DNA from: Hoeflea sp.
Lineage (GTDB): Bacteria; Pseudomonadota; Alphaproteobacteria; Rhizobiales; Rhizobiaceae
Assembly: GCA_019084245.1 (NCBI GenBank)
Contig: JAHRFE010000028.1
Location: 682,001 to 746,000 of the forward strand
DNA length: 64,000 nucleotides
Reading direction: 5' to 3'
Below are positions 10,425 to 24,703 of this stretch, one piece after another (positions within the stretch are counted from its first letter, which is position 1; each line of letters begins with the position of its first letter). The position numbers and the translations under genes were made by a program. The notes below the pieces were generated by a model. That model ran no database searches and was not told the DNA's origin. It was given only the letters and a program-made list of their open reading frames with translations.

Positions 10425-10554
10425 TCCCGCCTTCTTTCGGTTTCATCATTGCTCAGGATGCATATAATCCCCAAGAGCCGATCATTCAAATGGTCGATCA
10501 TTCTATTTCACACTGCCTGTATACACGGGCCGGGCCGATTGCGGACACCAAAGC

Positions 10555-14686: not shown

Positions 14687-15508
14687 TTAGCGCCACTTTG
14701 GCCGCAAGGCAAGGATTGCAGCGGCCGTCTCCTCAATCGAACGGCGGGTCACGTCGATGACAGGCCAGTTGTGCCGTTCGCACAGCGATCTCGCATATTT
14801 CAGTTCTTCACTGATCAGCGCACGATCAGTGTAATGATCGCCCTGATATCCAGCCGTTGCGCCCAACACCCGGTTTTGCCGAACCTGAGAAATCCGTTCG
14901 ACCGATGCGATGAGGCCGACAACAAGCGGCTTCTTAGCCTCGATCAAGGCCTCGGGAAGCGGTACCCCGTAGACGATCGGAATATTGGCGGTCTTAATGC
15001 CGCGGTTTGCCAGATAGATGCTGGTCGGTGTTTTCGAGGTTCGGCTGATGCCGAGAATCACAAGATCGGCCTCGTCAAAATCGGCCGGCAACTGGCCGTC
15101 ATCATGGTCCAGGGTGAAATTCAAAGCATCGATACGCTTGAAATACTCCTCGCCCATCGTGTGTTGCGCCCCGACGCGCCGGCGTGAGGGCGCGCCAAGA
15201 TAGGTCTGGAACACGTTGATGACCGGTTCGAGCACCGAGACGCTGGGCAGACCCATGTCCCGGCATTTCAGTTCGATGATGGCAGACAGTTCCGCGTCGA
15301 CGATGGTGTAAAGCACGATCCCCGGCGCGCCATCGATGGCGTCGAGCACGGCGAACAATTGCTTGCGGGTGCGGATCAGTGGGTAGACGTGCTCCAGTGC
15401 CTGGGCGCCCTGGAATTGTGCAGCGGCGGCGCGGCCGGCGGCCATCAGGGTCTCGCCGGTCGAATCGGAGATGAGGTGCAGGTGGAAATAGTTTTTTGTC
15501 TGCTCCAC
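14687..15508 (-). CDS. ppsR: Pyruvate phosphate dikinase regulatory protein (DUF299; bifunctional kinase/phosphorylase)
   Basis: A 273-residue regulatory protein of the DUF299 family, which phosphorylates and dephosphorylates PPDK (or PEP synthase in enterobacteria) using ADP and phosphate. The P-loop-like GISRTSKT is at 153-160, preceded by FDEADLVIL. The start is a GTG at 15508 with GGAG several bases upstream. The gene faces away from hemE; in Caulobacter and relatives, a gene of this family and hemE flank the replication origin, and the same gap here has origin-like motifs. Confidence 0.93.
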
Positions 15509-15726
15509 AGGATTCTCCGTGGCATGTTGATAAAGCGGGACAGAGGTGAGCTAAGGGGCAGCGGGGTCCGAATGCAAGGGATAACCCGGCAGGTTCTCCA
15601 CATCGGCAGTCCTCATGACAGTTTTGGAGGGGTTATGACCTGGTTTGTGGAAAATTTCATGCAGCGCCATTCAGGTGAAATGCTCGGCCAGCCGAATTGC
15701 CTGAATCCAAAAGCTTTTTGGAGAGC

Positions 15727-15770
15727 TGACACTCATGGTGTCAAATCGGATTGTCCTTCCGGTTTGACAC
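15727..15770. repeat. Triple GTGTCA/TGACAC element in the oriC gap
   Basis: TGACAC (15727-15732) and GTGTCA (15738-15743) form a perfect six-base dyad with a five-base spacer. A third copy, TTTGACAC (15763-15770), is an inverted match to GTGTCAAA (15738-15745). The spacing suggests a repeated protein-binding half-site. No known alphaproteobacterial origin-binding factor with this recognition sequence comes to mind. Confidence 0.6.
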
Positions 15771-15798
15771 GGTTTATATGGGCAAGCTGTGGACGGGC

Positions 15799-15807
15799 TG
15801 TGGATAA
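15799..15807. promoter_or_regulatory. Perfect DnaA box
   Basis: TGTGGATAA is the exact complement of the canonical TTATCCACA box. It lies 77 bases upstream of the hemE ATG and three bases from a degenerate same-orientation box at 15788-15796. Confidence 0.8.
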
Positions 15808-15883
15808 ATCGCAATCCCCGTAAAACACAGAGTCTAAGAATCAGAATCCTAAATCAATAAGGATTTGTTTTAAGGAAGTGGTG

Positions 15884-16924
15884 ATGACCAAAGCTGGTGA
15901 ACGCAAGGTGATGAAGGTCCTGGCTGGGGAGACCGTGTTTCCGCCACCTGTCTGGCTGATGCGACAGGCTGGGCGGTATTTGCCGGAGTACCGGGCAACG
16001 CGGGCGAAGGCGAAGGGCTTTCTCGATCTGTGTTACACGCCTGACCTGGCCGTCGAAGTCACGATGCAGCCGATCCGCCGGTTCGGCTTTGATGCGGCCA
16101 TCCTGTTTTCCGATATCCTGGTCATTCCAGATGCTCTTGACCGGAATGTGCGGTTTGTCGAAGGCACCGGACCTCTGATGGATCCGATAACGCCTGAGGG
16201 TATTGCTGGGCTGAACGCAGCTGGCATGCATGCGCATCTTGCTCCGGTCTATGAGACGGTCCGGCGGTTGCGTGCCGAGCTGCCTGCGGAAACCACGTTG
16301 CTGGGCTTCTGTGGCGCCCCGTGGACAGTCGCCACCTACATGATCGCAGGCCACGGAACGCCGGACCAGGCGCCGGCGCGGCTGTTCGCGATGCAGCACC
16401 CCGAAGCGTTTGCGGCGCTGCTCGATCTGCTCTCGGAGATTTCAACGGACTATCTGATTGCCCAGATCGATGCCGGCGCGGATGCGGTGCAGATCTTTGA
16501 TTCCTGGGCCGGGGTCTTGAGTGAACGCGATTTTGCGAAATTCTCCATCGGGCCGGTGAAGCGCATGGTGGATCGCATCCGCAAGGAACGGCCGGGTGTG
16601 CCGGTGATCGGGTTTGCCAAGGGCGCCGGCGCGTTGCTGGAGAATTACCGTACGGCAACCGGGGTCGATTGCGTCGGGCTGGATTGGACGGTTCCCGCCA
16701 GGCTTGGCCGGCAGATACAGGCCGGTGGCGCGGTCCAGGGTAATCTTGATCCGCTGCGCATGGTTGCGGGTGGCAAGGCGCTTGATGAAGGCGTTGATGA
16801 AGTGCTTGAGACCCTTGGTGACGGTCCGCTGATCTTCAATCTCGGGCACGGGATCACGCCGCAGGCGGATCCGGAAAACGTGACCCGTCTGATGCAGCGG
16901 ATCAGAGGTGCTGAGAAACGCTGA
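15884..16924 (+). CDS. hemE: Uroporphyrinogen decarboxylase
   Basis: A 346-residue enzyme decarboxylating uroporphyrinogen III to coproporphyrinogen III in heme synthesis. The N-terminal signature [17 protein letters not shown] (about 21-37) carries the substrate-binding Arg and Asp-loop region, followed by [13 protein letters not shown] with the key aspartate. GTG codons at 15878 and 15881 are in frame, but AAGGAAG at 15872-15878 is correctly spaced for the ATG at 15884. hemJ overlaps by one base (TGATG). Its promoter must lie in the proposed origin, so transcription and initiation may interact. Confidence 0.97.
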
Positions 16925-17466
16925 TGTCAGACAAGGCGACAAGTGCGAGTGAAGGCAGCAAGGCCCGGCTGAAAGCCTATGTGTCTGTTGGGGCGGTGGT
17001 GATCCTGGCGCTGCTTGCCTGGTGGTTCGATCCGGACTGGCTTTACGGCTGGCTCAAGGTGCTGCACGTGGTCGCGGTGATTTCCTGGATGGTCGGGCTG
17101 TTCTATCTGCCGCGGTTGTTTGTCTATCATGCCGATGCGCCAACCGGCAGCGAGCCTGCAACGACCTTCGTGGTGATGGAACAACGGCTTGTCAAAGTGA
17201 TCATGACACCGGCCATGATGGTGTCATGGGTGGTTGGCCTCTGGCTCGCCTGGAGCGGCTTCGGCTTCCTGGGTCTGTGGTTGTGGATCAAGATCGCCGG
17301 GGTCGTCGGGCTCACGGTGTTTCACGTGTATCTCAGCCGGGCGGCGCGAAAATTTGCTGCCGGCCAGAACACCATGACCGCCCGGCAATGGCGCATGGCC
17401 AATGAAATCCCGACCGTGCTGATGATCGTCGTGATCATCATGGTGATCATCAAGCCCTTTGCCTGA
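16924..17466 (+). CDS. hemJ: HemJ protoporphyrinogen IX oxidase
   Basis: A 180-residue membrane protein that oxidises protoporphyrinogen IX, replacing HemG/HemY in most alphaproteobacteria. Four hydrophobic helices are visible, beginning with [15 protein letters not shown]; the conserved histidine lies in [17 protein letters not shown] and the conserved lysine in [12 protein letters not shown]. The family's usual length is about 140-180. It is coupled to hemE by a TGATG overlap, placing two heme steps on one transcript. Confidence 0.93.
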
Positions 17467-18967: not shown

Positions 18968-20290
18968 ATGCGGGATACGATCTACGCGCTGTCATCTGGG
19001 CATCCACCGGCCGGCGTTGCGGTGATCCGGATCTCTGGCCCCGGTGTTCGATTCGGACTCGAAACAGTCGCTGGGTCGGTGCCGGCGCCGCGATCGGCAA
19101 AATTGTCGAATATGAGAGATAGTGCAGGCCAACTGCTTGATCAGGGCTTGGTAATCTATTTTCCGGAGCCGCATTCCTTTACCGGTGAAGATGTAGCTGA
19201 ACTTCAGATCCATGGCAGCCGCGCCTCGATTTCAGCAGTTTTATCTGCGCTGTCAGAGATCTCCGGCTTTCGGCCGGCGGAGGCAGGAGAATTCACCCGA
19301 CGCGCATTCGAGAACGGGCGGATGGACCTGACCGCGGTTGAGGGCCTATCAGACCTGATCCGCGCAGAGACTGAATCGCAACGCAAACAGGCGCTCGGGC
19401 AGGCCGGCGGTCACCTCAGGCTATTGTATGAAGGATGGGCCAAGCGTCTGACCTATGCACGAGCAATGATCGAGGCGGAAATCGATTTCTCGGATGAAGA
19501 GGACATCCCGGGATCAGTCGCCGATCGGGTGTGGCCGGACATGCAGACCCTTGCTGATGAGATCAAACAGCATCTGGCGGGTGCGCGTACCGGAGAAATC
19601 CTCCGTTCAGGGTTCCAGGTCGCGCTGGTCGGCGCGCCGAACGTCGGAAAATCGTCGCTTCTGAACGCCCTGGCGCAGCGGGATGTGGCGATTGTCTCGG
19701 ACGTTCCCGGCACCACCAGGGACGTGATCCAAACCCGCTTGGATATTGGCGGGCATCTTGTCTTACTGATGGATACGGCGGGCATCCGGGCATCGGACAA
19801 TCCTGTTGAGCTTGAGGGTATGCGGCGTACGCTGATGACAGCTGAGTCGGCGGATCTGGTTCTCGAACTGCGAAGCCTGATAGACAGAACAGAGACGACC
19901 CCGGTCGACACTCTGGCGTCAGAGAGGCTTGTTGTATGGACCAAGTCTGATCTCGTTGACAACGCGACGCTGGAGCTTCCGGGTACAGAACTCGCGGTTT
20001 CGAGCAAGACGGGGTATGGTCTTGATGCATTGCTTCAGTCGATTGCTGGTCGTCTTTCCAGCCTGGACCAAACCAGCGATGAAGCGCTGCCCACACGAGA
20101 GCGGCATATCACCCTCTTGAAAGATTGTCTGAAAGAGGTACAAGCCGCTGTTATTGGCGTTGACGCTCCAATTGAGATACGGTCTGAACTCTTACGCGTG
20201 GCGTCTGGCGCGCTCGGGAAGATTACCGGTTCGGTAGATGTCGAGCAGTTGCTTGGTGTGATCTTTTCTGAATTCTGCGTGGGGAAGTGA
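18968..20290 (+). CDS. mnmE: MnmE (TrmE) tRNA modification GTPase
   Basis: A 440-residue GTPase that, with MnmG, forms the 5-carboxymethylaminomethyl group on U34 of certain tRNAs. The N-terminal tetrahydrofolate domain starts TIYALSSGHPPAGVAVIRIS; the G domain has G1 GAPNVGKS at 222-229, G2 DVPGTTRD at 245-252 and G3 DTAG at 269-272; the C-terminal FCVGK supplies the conserved Cys437. It begins 38 bases after rho. Its TGA stop forms the first bases of a parS site. Confidence 0.97.
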   Translation: MRDTIYALSSGHPPAGVAVIRISGPGVRFGLETVAGSVPAPRSAKLSNMRDSAGQLLDQGLVIYFPEPHSFTGEDVAELQIHGSRASISAVLSALSEISGFRPAEAGEFTRRAFENGRMDLTAVEGLSDLIRAETESQRKQALGQAGGHLRLLYEGWAKRLTYARAMIEAEIDFSDEEDIPGSVADRVWPDMQTLADEIKQHLAGARTGEILRSGFQVALVGAPNVGKSSLLNALAQRDVAIVSDVPGTTRDVIQTRLDIGGHLVLLMDTAGIRASDNPVELEGMRRTLMTAESADLVLELRSLIDRTETTPVDTLASERLVVWTKSDLVDNATLELPGTELAVSSKTGYGLDALLQSIAGRLSSLDQTSDEALPTRERHITLLKDCLKEVQAAVIGVDAPIEIRSELLRVASGALGKITGSVDVEQLLGVIFSEFCVGK

Positions 20291-20303
20291 TTCACGTGAA
20301 ACA
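20288..20303. other. parS: parS site overlapping the mnmE stop codon
   Basis: TGATTCACGTGAAACA differs from the 16-base parS consensus TGTTTCACGTGAAACA at one position. Its first three bases are the mnmE stop codon. It is the first of three sites in a 101-bp stretch between mnmE and mnmG. Confidence 0.88.
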
Positions 20304-20327
20304 CCGCTCGGTCAGCGACCACGCTCT

Positions 20328-20343
20328 TGACTCACGTGAAACA
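20328..20343. other. parS: parS site between mnmE and mnmG
   Basis: TGACTCACGTGAAACA differs from the parS consensus at two positions in the left half; the CACGTG centre and right half are intact. It starts 40 bases after the start of the preceding site. Confidence 0.8.
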
Positions 20344-20372
20344 TCATCGATCCAGATCTGACGCCCGTTGTC

Positions 20373-20388
20373 TGTTTCACGTGAAACG
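20373..20388. other. parS: parS site with perfect 14-base core upstream of mnmG
   Basis: TGTTTCACGTGAAACG contains the perfect palindromic core GTTTCACGTGAAAC at 20374-20387. It is 45 bases from the preceding site and 56 bases before the mnmG start. Confidence 0.92.
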
Positions 20389-20443
20389 TTTTTCTGGGCA
20401 CTGACGCTTATACACCCGAGACGGATGCCTCCGGAGATTTGAT

Positions 20444-22315
20444 ATGCATTATGATGTTATTGTGATCGGTGGCGGGCATGCGGGGAGTGAAGCAGCCGCT
20501 GCCTCTGCGCGGATGGGCGCCAGAACCGCTTTGATCACGCATAAACTAGACACCATTGGAACGATGTCCTGCAATCCGGCGATAGGCGGACTTGGCAAAG
20601 GCCATCTTGTCCGTGAGATCGATGCCATGGACGGGCTTATGGGACTGGCCGCGGACAAGTCCGGCATTCAGTTTCGGATGCTCAATCGTCGCAAGGGACC
20701 GGCAGTATGGGGCCCTCGCACCCAGGCCGATCGTAAGCTCTACCGCCGGGCAATCCAGTCCTTTCTGAACGCAATCCCAAACCTTGATATCATCGAGGCC
20801 GATGTTGATGACCTTCACACTGACGGCGGCGTCGTAAGTGGTGTGGTCCTGAAAGACGAAACTGTGGTTGGTGCGTCCGCGGTTGTCTTGACCACTGGCA
20901 CCTTCCTCCGTGGCTTGATTCATATTGGAGACCGAAAAATCCCCGCGGGGCGACTCAACGAGAATCCGTCGCTGGGACTTTCGGCGACGCTTGAGCGCGC
21001 TGGTTTTGTGCTTGGACGGTTGAAGACCGGGACGCCCGCGCGCCTGGATGGCGACACCATTGATTGGAACAAGGTGGAATGGCAGGAAGCGGATGCGGCG
21101 CCGATTCCATTTTCCTTCATGAGCGACAAGATCGAGGTTCCGCAAATCCGCTGCGGAATTACCCGGACCACGGCGGAGACGCATAAGATCATTCAGGATA
21201 ACATTCATCGATCTGCCATGTATTCCGGCCAGATCGAAGGCGTCGGACCACGGTATTGTCCCTCGATCGAAGACAAAATCGTTCGCTTTGGCGAGCGCGA
21301 CGGACACCAGATCTTTCTCGAGCCCGAGGGGCTGGATGATTCGACCGTCTATCCGAACGGCATATCCACCTCCCTTCCGGAAGAGGTCCAGGACGAGTTC
21401 CTGAGAACCATTCCGGGTTTGGAGAATGTGCGGATCATCCAACCTGGTTACGCGATCGAATATGACCACGTTGATCCGCGGGAGCTGTCGCAATCGCTGG
21501 AGACAAGACGAATCTCTGGACTTTTCCTGGCAGGCCAGATCAATGGAACCACAGGCTACGAGGAAGCTGCGGCGCAGGGTCTGGTTGCCGGTCTGAACGC
21601 CGCGCTCAAGGTTCAGGACCGGCCGGCGTTTCTGTTCAGCCGGACTGATTCCTACATTGGGGTGATGATCGACGATCTGACGACAAAGGGCGTCAGCGAA
21701 CCGTATCGCATGTTCACCTCCCGTGCCGAATACCGCCTGTCCCTTCGTGCTGACAATGCCGAGCTGCGGCTGACGCCCAAGGCCATCGAGTTGGGGTGCA
21801 TTGCAGACGACCGAAAGACAAAGTTTCTGGGCTATCTCGATTCGCTAACGAAATGTTTGGCAGAATTGAAAGATCGCACTTTGACGCCGTCGGAGGCTGC
21901 CAGACATGGTCTGGCGCTGAACCAGGACGGCATTCGCAGATCGGCGTTCCAATTGCTGTCCTATCCGAATGTAACCGTCGATCAGTTGATTTCGATCTGG
22001 CCGGACCTCGCTTACCATGATGATAAGGTTTTGAAAGCCGCGGCAGTCGACGCAGCCTATGCGGTCTATCTGGACCGGCAGATGGAGGATATAAAGCAAC
22101 GTCGCCGAGAGGAAGATCGACTCATCCCGGACGACTTCCGCTATGACAATCTGCCAGGCCTCTCGCAGGAACTGAAGTTGAAGCTCGATCGGGTGCGACC
22201 ACCTTCAATAGGTCACGCAGAACGGATTGAGGGCATGACACCCGCAGCAGTGGCACTTTTGCTGGCCTATTTGCGCAAGGGTCCGGCAAGCCGCCGCACC
22301 GGGATCGCGGTCTGA
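20444..22315 (+). CDS. mnmG: MnmG (GidA) tRNA uridine-5-carboxymethylaminomethyl modification enzyme
   Basis: A 623-residue FAD protein, partner of MnmE. The FAD-binding [12 protein letters not shown] is at 9-20; [18 protein letters not shown] and the [16 protein letters not shown] signature are present, and the C-terminal helical domain with LSREL-type repeats follows ([15 protein letters not shown]). The length is normal. The 153-bp gap after mnmE is filled by three parS sites. rsmG follows after one base. Confidence 0.98.
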
Positions 22316-22316
22316 T

Positions 22317-22961
22317 ATGGCGTTCGATTCAAAGGCTCATGGGTTTCTCCCGGATTCCGGGTTTGTTTCACGTGAAACATGGGACAGGCTTCGGGTTCAC
22401 GCGGATCTTGTTCGAAAGTGGCAATCCTCGATCAACCTGATTTCTCCCAAGACGCTGCCGGATCTATGGGAGCGGCATGTTCTCGACAGTCTGCAGTTGT
22501 TCCGGCTCCGGCCGGATCCCCTGACCTGGATAGACATGGGTAGTGGCGCGGGGTTTCCGGGCCTGGTAACGGCGATATGTCTGACTGATCTCGATGCTGG
22601 CTGGGTTCATCTGGTGGAGAGCAACAACAAGAAGGCCGCATTTCTGCGCCAGGTCATCTCGAAAACCGGAGCACGGGCGAGCGTCCACCCGATGCGCATG
22701 GAAGCCATGCATGGAGAGCTTGGAGATGTGGAGGCGATATCCGCCCGTGCCCTGGCGTCCCTGCCCGAACTGCTGGAGTATGCGGCTCCCTTTGCCTCGA
22801 AAAACCCTGCGCTCGAATTGTGGTTTCACAAAGGTATGGATTATCCGGGAGAAGTGCGATCAGCGCGTGACCTTTGGGGTTTTGATCTGATAGAACATCA
22901 AAGTCTGGCGCGGGATGGATCGGCGATCCTGCAGATCAGCAATCTTTCCAAGCGCAACTAG
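22317..22961 (+). CDS. rsmG: RsmG (GidB) 16S rRNA 7-methylguanosine methyltransferase
   Basis: A 214-residue SAM-dependent enzyme that methylates G527 of 16S rRNA; its loss gives low-level streptomycin resistance in other bacteria. The SAM loop is DMGSGAGFPGLV at 73-84, and ISARALASLPELL follows. Residues 17-21 (VSRET) are encoded by a perfect parS sequence, so this N-terminal segment is constrained as both protein and centromere. It ends 16 bases before the parA start. Confidence 0.96.
   Translation: MAFDSKAHGFLPDSGFVSRETWDRLRVHADLVRKWQSSINLISPKTLPDLWERHVLDSLQLFRLRPDPLTWIDMGSGAGFPGLVTAICLTDLDAGWVHLVESNNKKAAFLRQVISKTGARASVHPMRMEAMHGELGDVEAISARALASLPELLEYAAPFASKNPALELWFHKGMDYPGEVRSARDLWGFDLIEHQSLARDGSAILQISNLSKRN
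22364..22379. other. parS: Perfect 16-base parS site inside rsmG
   Basis: TGTTTCACGTGAAACA matches the parS consensus at all 16 positions. It encodes residues 17-21 of RsmG and is about 600 bases upstream of parA and 6.5 kb from the proposed origin. Confidence 0.95.
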
Positions 22962-22977
22962 CCCGCGGACCTTCTCG

Positions 22978-23772
22978 ATGCACCTTTCGAAGAACCGGAT
23001 CATCACCATCGCCAATCAAAAGGGTGGTGTTGGCAAGACAACCACCGCCATCAATCTGGCCACCGCTTTGGCGGCGATCGGAGAGGAAGTGCTGATCGTC
23101 GACATCGACCCGCAGGGCAATGCCAGCACGGGTCTTGGGATTGACCGCAAGGACCGCGGTATCTCGGCCTATGACCTGCTGACCCAGAACGCAACGGTCA
23201 GCGAAACAGTGATGCAGACCGCCGTGCCGCATTTGAGCATCATTCCGTCGACCATGGATCTGCTCGGTGTGGAGATGGAAATCGCCGGCACGCCGGACCG
23301 CGTGTTCCGACTGCGCAAAGCTCTGCAGGCGGCGGATGCGCAGCGATACAACTACGTTTTGATCGATTGCCCGCCATCGCTCAATCTCCTGACCATGAAT
23401 GCCATGGCAGCGGCCCATTCCATACTGGTGCCGTTGCAGTGTGAATTTTTCGCGCTCGAAGGGCTCAGCCAGCTGCTGGAAACGGTCGAACAGGTGCGCG
23501 ACTCGCTCAATCCGACGCTGGATATCCAGGGCATCGTCATGACGATGTATGACCCGCGCAACAATCTGGCGCTGCAGGTTGTCGAGGATGTCCGGTCGCA
23601 TCTGGGGGAGAAGGTCTACCGCACACTGATTCCGCGCAATGTCAGGGTCTCCGAAGCGCCGTCCTATGGCAAGCCGGCTATCTTGTATGATCTGAAATGC
23701 GCGGGCAGTCAGGCCTATCTGCAACTGGCCTCGGAAGTGATCCAGCGCGAACGTAACCGAAAAGCTGCCTGA
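22978..23772 (+). CDS. parA: ParA chromosome-partitioning ATPase
   Basis: A 264-residue Walker-type ATPase that, with ParB-parS, moves replicated origins to the poles. The deviant Walker A KGGVGKTT is at 15-22 with the signature lysine K15; VLIVDIDPQGNAST and YVLIDCPPSLN complete the nucleotide site. A longer frame from 22915 overlaps rsmG; the ATG at 22978 gives the standard MHLSKNRIITIANQKGG start. parB follows 34 bases downstream by my chosen start. Confidence 0.97.
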   Translation: MHLSKNRIITIANQKGGVGKTTTAINLATALAAIGEEVLIVDIDPQGNASTGLGIDRKDRGISAYDLLTQNATVSETVMQTAVPHLSIIPSTMDLLGVEMEIAGTPDRVFRLRKALQAADAQRYNYVLIDCPPSLNLLTMNAMAAAHSILVPLQCEFFALEGLSQLLETVEQVRDSLNPTLDIQGIVMTMYDPRNNLALQVVEDVRSHLGEKVYRTLIPRNVRVSEAPSYGKPAILYDLKCAGSQAYLQLASEVIQRERNRKAA

Positions 23773-23806: not shown

Positions 23807-24703
23807 ATGTCAGAAGAAGTTTCGAAAAAGCGCCTCGGACGAGGCCTGGCAGCCCTGATCGGAGAAATTGACCAACCGGCCTCGGCCCAATCCAGGCCGA
23901 CCATTTCGGCCGACCGCCTGGTGCCGATCGAACATGTCAGCCGCAATCCCCGCAATCCGCGGCGCTCATTTGATCCGGCTGATCTTGAGGATCTGTCCCG
24001 CTCGATCCGTCAGCATGGCATCGTCCAGCCCATCATGGTCCGCAGTGCAGGCACTGAGCGTTTTGAGATAATCGCCGGTGAACGCCGCTGGCGCGCCGCG
24101 CAAATGGCAGGCCTGGTCGAAATCCCGGTCATTGTCCGCGACGTGGACGACAAGACCGCGCTCGAAATCGCAATCGTCGAAAACGTGCAGCGTGCGGATC
24201 TTAACGCACTTGAAGAGGCGCAAGGCTATGAGCAGCTCATAGCGCAATATGGCTACACGCAGAATGATCTGGGCGAAGTCATCGGCAAAAGCCGCAGCCA
24301 TGTCGCCAATTCGCTTCGACTGCTCAAATTGCCCGAAGAAGTCCGCACCATGCTGGCTGAAGGGGCTTTGTCGGCCGGTCATGCGCGAGCCATCGTCTCG
24401 ACGTCAGACCCGGTGGCGCTGGCCAAGCAGATTGCCCAGGGCGGGTTGTCGGTGCGCGATGCCGAAAAGCTAGCACAGAAAGACGCCGACCAGGCCAACC
24501 GGCCGGCTGGTCTTGAAACAAAGTCAGCCGGAAACGCCGATGCAAAAGATGCCGACACCGTCGCGCTTGAGAGAAGTCTGACGGACTATCTTGGCCTCAA
24601 GGTTCAATTGGCGCACAAGGGCCAAGGCGGCCAGATGCGTATAGAGTATAAATCGCTTGAGCAGTTGGACGAACTTTGCCGGCTATTGGGTGATAAACGA
24701 TAA
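23807..24703 (+). CDS. parB: ParB chromosome-partitioning protein
   Basis: A 298-residue CTP-dependent DNA clamp that loads at parS. The N-terminal KKRLGRGLAALIGE motif (ParA stimulation) is followed by the NPRNPRRSFD segment, the CTPase/ERRW box GERRWRAAQMAG, the HTH region (LGEVIGKSRSHVANSLRLL) and a C-terminal dimerisation domain. GTG codons at 23795 and 23801 are in frame; I use ATG 23807 because it gives the usual MSEEVSKKRLGRG terminus, but no strong ribosome-binding site decides it. Confidence 0.96.
   Translation: MSEEVSKKRLGRGLAALIGEIDQPASAQSRPTISADRLVPIEHVSRNPRNPRRSFDPADLEDLSRSIRQHGIVQPIMVRSAGTERFEIIAGERRWRAAQMAGLVEIPVIVRDVDDKTALEIAIVENVQRADLNALEEAQGYEQLIAQYGYTQNDLGEVIGKSRSHVANSLRLLKLPEEVRTMLAEGALSAGHARAIVSTSDPVALAKQIAQGGLSVRDAEKLAQKDADQANRPAGLETKSAGNADAKDADTVALERSLTDYLGLKVQLAHKGQGGQMRIEYKSLEQLDELCRLLGDKR

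Follow-up and report, generated by a model that had tools for sequence, protein, structure and literature searches.

The chromosomal origin of Sinorhizobium/Ensifer was reportedly described by Sibley et al. in 2006, and the oriC of E. coli carries GATC sites. In Caulobacter, the experimentally identified origin lies between hemE and COG1806, a gene pair present in several other alphaproteobacteria, and the occurrence of four or more DnaA boxes is held to be indicative of an origin (PMC1914354). A role for SeqA at E. coli oriC is described in a review (PMC10073500). The S. meliloti origin is reported to have no CtrA motifs and not to be bound by CtrA, while depletion of CtrA raises the DNA content about 20-fold; if CtrA governs initiation in this organism, the mechanism is described as indirect and not known, and CtrA binds the ccrM promoter (PMC4433202). 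Enrichment of GANTC sites around ori has already been reported for four alphaproteobacterial orders (PMC9836097).

Here we analyze an intergenic gap in the 4.82-Mb draft genome (46 contigs) of a Hoeflea sp. (Rhizobiaceae; GCA_019084245.1). The window is the whole stretch of 64,000 nucleotides analyzed (contig JAHRFE010000028.1, positions 682,001 to 746,000), and coordinates refer to it unless stated otherwise. An initial annotation of the window proposed that the gap is the chromosomal origin, a call that is supported by Cori-type flanking genes, recurrent DnaA boxes, nearby parS and parAB, and skew breaks in congeners. We regard the gap with high confidence as the oriC of this genome, which is the best explanation of the evidence as a whole, the steps of the mechanism being predicted from sequence features.

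The ppsR-hemE gap and its DnaA boxes

The gap, its flanking genes and its DnaA boxes are as follows.

14687..15508, minus strand: ppsR, kinase/pyrophosphorylase (PF03618, formerly DUF299/COG1806), the left flank gene of Cori-type origins
15509..15883, no strand: proposed oriC, in the intergenic space that separates the divergent genes ppsR and hemE
15525..15533, minus strand: DnaA box TTATCAACA, one mismatch
15594..15602, plus strand: DnaA box TTCTCCACA, one mismatch
15646..15654, minus strand: DnaA box TTTTCCACA, one mismatch
15788..15796, minus strand: degenerate DnaA-like site, three mismatches in the window
15799..15807, minus strand: perfect DnaA box TTATCCACA, hemE-proximal
15884..16924, plus strand: hemE, uroporphyrinogen decarboxylase, the right flank gene of the gap

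The leftward genes are aroE-maf-ppsR, and rightward past the gap lie hemE-hemJ-rho-mnmE-mnmG, a gene that we take from its translation to be rsmG, and parA-parB. Both flanking assignments score above the profile cut-off (PF03618 for ppsR and TIGR01464 for hemE). The gap is thus syntenic with Cori (PMC1914354), in agreement with the Caulobacter-like origin site that had been suggested beside hemE. Its GC content is 49%, compared with 61% for the window, and it had rightly been described as free of genes: none is evident among frames of at least 100 aa, of which two touch the gap besides hemE, one (15359-15823, plus strand) starting inside ppsR on the opposite strand and the other (15854-16399, minus strand) lying antisense to hemE. 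The observation that the rightward genes run away from the gap holds locally; as a genome-wide bias it is modest, with 57-68% of genes co-oriented in four congeners (codon-scored gene prediction).

The perfect box had been recognized beforehand and lies on the minus strand. At least two one-mismatch boxes had also been proposed, and the gap contains three; the two-mismatch box placed in the gap falls at 15501-15509, where it overlaps the ppsR start. One perfect and three one-mismatch boxes within 375 bp give the four or more boxes expected of a Cori-type origin. The number of boxes with at most one mismatch in the window is ordinary, because five are found and 4.63 are expected from shuffles; what is unusual is that four of the five cluster within 375 bp. 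The same contig has 21 such boxes in 289,579 bp, including the four in the gap, and none of 200 permuted 9-mers reached four matches there (mean 0.075, maximum 2).

The boxes recur in the corresponding gaps of relatives, which bears out the proposed comparison with their hemE-upstream regions. A 901-bp ppsR-gap-hemE query matches 54 of 61 genomes (own included), many of the matches spanning genes only, and 46 gaps were extracted (29 including the window, and 17 more; some genomes were reached twice, and for G019 and G031 the 450 bp before hemE were taken as the gap). These contain a mean of 2.7 boxes per gap, compared with 0.06 for 100 permuted 9-mers. Among the 11 other named Hoeflea gaps, the position of the 15594 box is filled in all 11 (12/12 with Hoef_SAT27, which is labelled Hoeflea, aligns with Pseudohoeflea and was kept apart), that of the 15525 box in 10 at no more than one mismatch (10/12 with SAT27), that of the perfect box at 15799 in nine, likewise at no more than one mismatch (9/12 with SAT27), and that of the 15646 box in one. 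The gap of SAT27 has the 15594 box only. A single box at up to one mismatch is found in P. suaedae, SAT27, SP168, S. medicae, G057, G046 and G021, and none in the 450 bp before hemE of G019. The counterpart of the degenerate site at 15788-15796 is TCATCCACA in three relatives, with one mismatch and 11 bp before the hemE-proximal box. The perfect box was considered as the key conserved element and rejected, as its position is filled in 0 of 12 Ensifer/Sinorhizobium gaps and vacant in two of the 11 other named Hoeflea.

Strand skew and the partition locus

A cumulative GC-skew minimum at the gap had been named as a check on the origin call, and its outcome is divided. In the own contig (500001-789579, 290 kb) the cumulative curve bottoms out at 586798, which is 111 kb to the left of the gap; within the window it stays level up to about 15.0 kb, with a minimum of -15 at 10526, and rises afterwards. 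Because the own-contig minimum lies away from the gap, skew was also sampled in near-complete relatives, with twenty 20-kb stretches taken from each of four near-complete Hoeflea chromosomes (G001, G017, G011 and G003), from G055 (one contig, of another family of the order) and from the chromosome scaffold of Ensifer sesbaniae; breaks were located by a two-level circular fit and are resolved to intervals of about 240-290 kb. At this resolution the four Hoeflea chromosomes (-110/178, -89/151, -202/38 and -38/202 kb around the gap) and E. sesbaniae (-167/124 kb) each have a GC-skew break in the interval that contains the gap. For G017, moving the break one sample to the left gives nearly as good a fit (sum of squares 0.00409 vs 0.00403). 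A second break lies opposite or nearly so in the fitted chromosomes. In G055, no GC-skew change is seen at the hemE gap (polar component 0.0014). The one-contig record of the congener G001 has both ends inside the ppsR-hemE gap.

The GC skew of the four Hoeflea chromosomes is one-armed, at +0.042 to +0.056 on the hemE side and -0.008 to +0.005 on the ppsR side (hemE sense), which implies that one strand is G-rich overall, with an offset of about +0.018 to +0.030. The own-contig minimum 111 kb away is in keeping with this near-zero skew of the ppsR-side arm. In the same chromosomes the TA skew is nearly antisymmetric; on the ppsR arm, fourfold sites weakly share the polarity of the other arm (+0.006 to +0.051) and the polarity of intergenic DNA is normal but weak (-0.008 to -0.028). 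The GC skew of E. sesbaniae is symmetric (-0.024/+0.023). In G055:C1, the hemE-sense strand is G-rich on either side of the hemE gap (+0.031 and +0.034), and the mean TA skew switches sign there. SkewDB reports a threefold or greater asymmetry for about 250 chromosomes, and such data are termed hard to explain (PMC8941118).

The rightward genes include a partition locus with the following features.

20288..20303: parS-like site, one mismatch
20328..20343: parS-like site, two mismatches
20373..20388: parS-like site, one mismatch
22364..22379: parS, perfect match to the consensus
22969..23772, plus strand: parA
23810..24703, plus strand: parB

The four parS sites (20288-22379) are 4.4-6.5 kb from the gap, which thus has parS and ParB nearby, a feature by which origins are judged. 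Only six parS-like sites with up to two mismatches occur in the 4.82-Mb genome, the remaining two being located 76 kb leftward and on another contig. In E. sesbaniae, P. suaedae and S. medicae (8, 5 and 7 sites, respectively), all are on the contig of the hemE gap, within about 66 kb. Two further parS-like sites, at 17318 and 17531 and with three mismatches each, lie between the gap and the four stronger ones of the window. An origin linked to dnaA was considered and rejected: dnaA is at own-contig position 382131, about 314 kb from the gap, and its 4.4-kb locus has one near-box.

A conserved core with clustered GANTC sites

The hemE-proximal part of the gap contains the following features.

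15738..15770, no strand: dyad of the initial annotation, arms 15738-15750 and 15758-15770
15813..15850, plus strand: conserved core AATCC..GANTC-WWAGAAWYAGAA, proposed unwinding element
15819..15878, no strand: AT-rich stretch, 68-72% AT in 40-bp windows, proposed DNA unwinding element
15830..15834: GANTC (CcrM) site 1 of the triad
15838..15842: GANTC (CcrM) site 2 of the triad
15844..15848: GANTC (CcrM) site 3 of the triad

The dyad, which had been called AT-rich, has an AT content of about one half, much as in the remainder of the gap. It is an imperfect hairpin with 13-nt arms separated by 7 nt; 10-12 of the 13 pairs form in the window and in four of 28 relatives (MAG81, C1bin4, BAL378 and H. 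olei), and at most seven in the other 24. It also scores as a terminator-like stem, at chance level (shuffles give 0.7). With this composition, and with conservation limited to the nearest relatives, we rejected an AT-rich dyad as an origin element.

The best-conserved stretch besides the boxes is instead 15813-15850, near hemE, which consists of AATCC followed by GANTC and WWAGAA; neither this core nor the AT-rich region at 15819-15878, which supplies the AT-rich region of about 40 bp expected of a Cori-type origin, had been named in the initial annotation. We propose that the core is the unwinding element. GANTCWWAGAA is present in 41 of the 46 gaps and missing from Alpha_BOG, G057, G027, G046 and G021. 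The 17-base core pattern GASTCWWAGAAWYAGAA is present, always as a single copy, in 146 of 297 family genomes and in 61 of 109 genera, while the reversed control pattern gives one hit. In 79 of 80 genomes, 43-175 bp separate the end of the core from a downstream hemE match of a protein search on the same strand (the 80 were chosen by us from the 146; 15 mostly among the 901-bp-query genomes and 51 others were left out).

The gap contains five GANTC sites, three of them within the 19 bp of 15830-15848. All 17 same-genus loci that matched the 901-bp query, the window among them, carry this triad with spacings of 8 and 6 (there was no match in G008), and triads with a start-to-start span of at most 14 occur twice in 1.89 Mb of Hoeflea stretches; SAT27 carries two of the three sites. 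The first GANTC is present in all 146 cores, which is no evidence because the search pattern required it. The second is present in 65 of the 146 and absent from 81, by which a wholly Hoeflea-specific triad is ruled out. The core variants are AAATAGAA (68 genomes), AATCAGAA (65), AATTAGAA (8) and AAACAGAA (5), so that the variable positions W and Y change together across the family: the AAATAGAA state fits a relaxed DnaA-trio, and the AATCAGAA state creates a further GANTC. This pairing may be explained in part by shared ancestry.

The core appears to follow the origin interval rather than either flanking gene, because it stays in place in three genomes in which one of them is displaced or missing. 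In G202, the lone exception among the 80, hemE is on another contig; the ppsR-hemJ-rho interval retains GANTC sites and two DnaA boxes along with the core, while the 1 kb before the relocated hemE contains neither core, GANTC nor DnaA box. In G019 and G031, the assemblies contain no match to ppsR, the core is still at hemE, and maf and aroE abut the origin (with five DnaA boxes in G031 and none in G019). The hemE gene of G202, now away from the origin, follows a frame that we take from its translation to be NhaA-like (G202 loci C22:80001-83000 and C21:109801-111000).

Two other readings of the gap concern what the boxes and the core are for. The cluster might be a region of DnaA-dependent regulation or of DnaA titration that lies close to the true origin without being it: DnaA boxes alone are no proof of an origin, the skew breaks locate it only to within their wide intervals, and the own-contig minimum lies elsewhere. 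This is highly improbable given that, throughout the 289,579 bp of contig, 375-bp stretches taken from each box outside the gap never contain a second box, that the whole genome has only seven perfect boxes, and that the gap is syntenic with Cori and has the parS cluster nearby. Alternatively, the core might serve hemE, or the hem genes after it, as a promoter or leader instead of being an unwinding element, the origin then comprising the leftward boxes only. The position of the core before hemE is promoter-like and a -10 region could lie in the AT-rich stretch, but a search for a promoter from which hemE would be transcribed inside the origin, as suggested in the initial annotation, gives no sigma-70-type match at 15400-16000 (promoters of this group may differ), and in G202 hemE has moved without the core, which stayed with two boxes (a single genome, in which the core may serve hemJ). 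We consider a promoter function in place of unwinding unlikely.

The GANTC sites suggest a further, rather doubtful possibility, namely that CcrM methylation of the core triad gates melting of the origin, the sites being hemimethylated after firing and fully methylated only late in the cycle, and that CtrA gains an indirect hold through ccrM. Such a gate would supply an indirect CtrA route to an S. meliloti-type origin. It is favored by the constancy of the triad within the genus and its rarity elsewhere in Hoeflea DNA, by the second GANTC of 65 family cores, which was not demanded by the search pattern, and by the presence in this genome of GcrA and a RAMA-domain (CcrM-type) protein (in a control panel of 14, the RAMA search matched Caulobacter only). 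It is disfavored by the 81 family cores that lack the second site and by the incomplete triad of SAT27. In A. tumefaciens, CcrM over-expression is reported to have changed the number of ori2 but not significantly that of ori1, and CcrM depletion to have delayed ori2 (PMC11514494); in C. crescentus, CcrM is said in a review to act on replication only indirectly (PMC10073500); and the GANTC enrichment at ori known from four orders could serve transcription (PMC9836097). More doubtful still is the general form of this proposal, in which the single-copy Rhizobiaceae core with GANTC would be a CcrM-gated melting switch and the missing indirect route of CtrA, a switch that in Hoeflea would be strengthened to three sites in 19 bp at the expense of the DnaA-trio pattern.

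The gap is thus very probably the origin, an identity about as secure as sequence allows, with the own-contig skew, G055, the nearly equal alternative fit in G017, the box-poor relatives, the vacant perfect-box position in Ensifer/Sinorhizobium and the lack of a CtrA site and of a convincing IHF site as the points against it. In the initiation process that we infer, DnaA would bind the four boxes over 15525-15807, and an oligomer would spread from the hemE-proximal perfect box; the AT-rich core (15813-15850, AT-rich to 15878) would then melt and take the helicase, two forks would leave through ppsR and hemE, and ParB on the four parS sites would segregate the copies. The novelty is modest: the gap sits where known synteny predicts, and what was not found described in the literature searched is the core and its GANTC triad (among the best-ranked matches in open-licence papers, no title or abstract start dealt with a Hoeflea origin or with the core). 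The 17-base, once-per-genome core serves as an origin marker in roughly half of the family genomes sampled, it stayed in the single case found of hemE moving, and it places methylation sites within the presumed melting region. The restraint of replication by CtrA in rhizobia whose origin is reported not to be CtrA-bound (PMC4433202) would become testable by point mutation of the core.

Comparison with known origins

The Hoeflea gap resembles E. coli oriC in having methyltransferase sites inside or beside the presumed melting region, and differs in that these are GATC/Dam sites in E. coli and GANTC/CcrM sites in Hoeflea. It shares with the DnaA-trio origins of Bacillus and Helicobacter the sequence of a DnaA box, a C-rich AATCCCCG, a purine-rich segment with a mid-triplet A, and AT-rich DNA (PMC8235120, PMC10797057). 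However, the strict 5'-TA[GA] repeat is absent from the window, and the triplets AAG-AAT-CAG-AAT are 28 nt from the DnaA box, compared with the 4-5 bp described in these sources. Two of the four triplets fit a relaxed consensus, 5'-HAR-3', which we derived from the published YTD consensus (PMC8235120), and the relaxed pattern is present in three triplets in 73 of the 146 family cores. Since spacing and triplets both fail, we do not place the window among the DnaA-trio origins.

The gap belongs to the Cori-like class by its flanking genes, several DnaA boxes and short AT-rich region, which it shares with the C. crescentus origin (PMC1914354, PMC4468827). Cori is described as having five CtrA sites, an IHF site and weak G- and W-boxes (PMC1914354, PMC4468827). 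The Hoeflea boxes are nearer to the E. coli consensus than those of Cori, one of them being perfect. Unlike Cori, the gap contains no full CtrA site (TTAA-N7-TTAA) at up to two mismatches, on which ground we rejected direct CtrA control of this origin, and no convincing IHF site: the one IHF-like match, with one mismatch at 15858 (minus strand), is of a type with 26 occurrences in the window. As the S. meliloti origin is likewise reported to lack CtrA motifs (PMC4433202), we do not take CtrA sites to be defining for Rhizobiaceae.

The likeness to the Sinorhizobium/Ensifer origin extends to the interval and to the core family, with GACTCTAAGAAATAGAAACC present in 12 Ensifer/Sinorhizobium gaps. 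The two groups differ in the hemE-proximal DnaA box, absent in Ensifer and present in the Hoeflea window, and in GC skew, which is one-armed in Hoeflea and symmetric in E. sesbaniae. Within the shared core, Ensifer has AAATAGAA, which fits the relaxed trio and has one GANTC, whereas Hoeflea has AATCAGAATC, with three GANTC sites.
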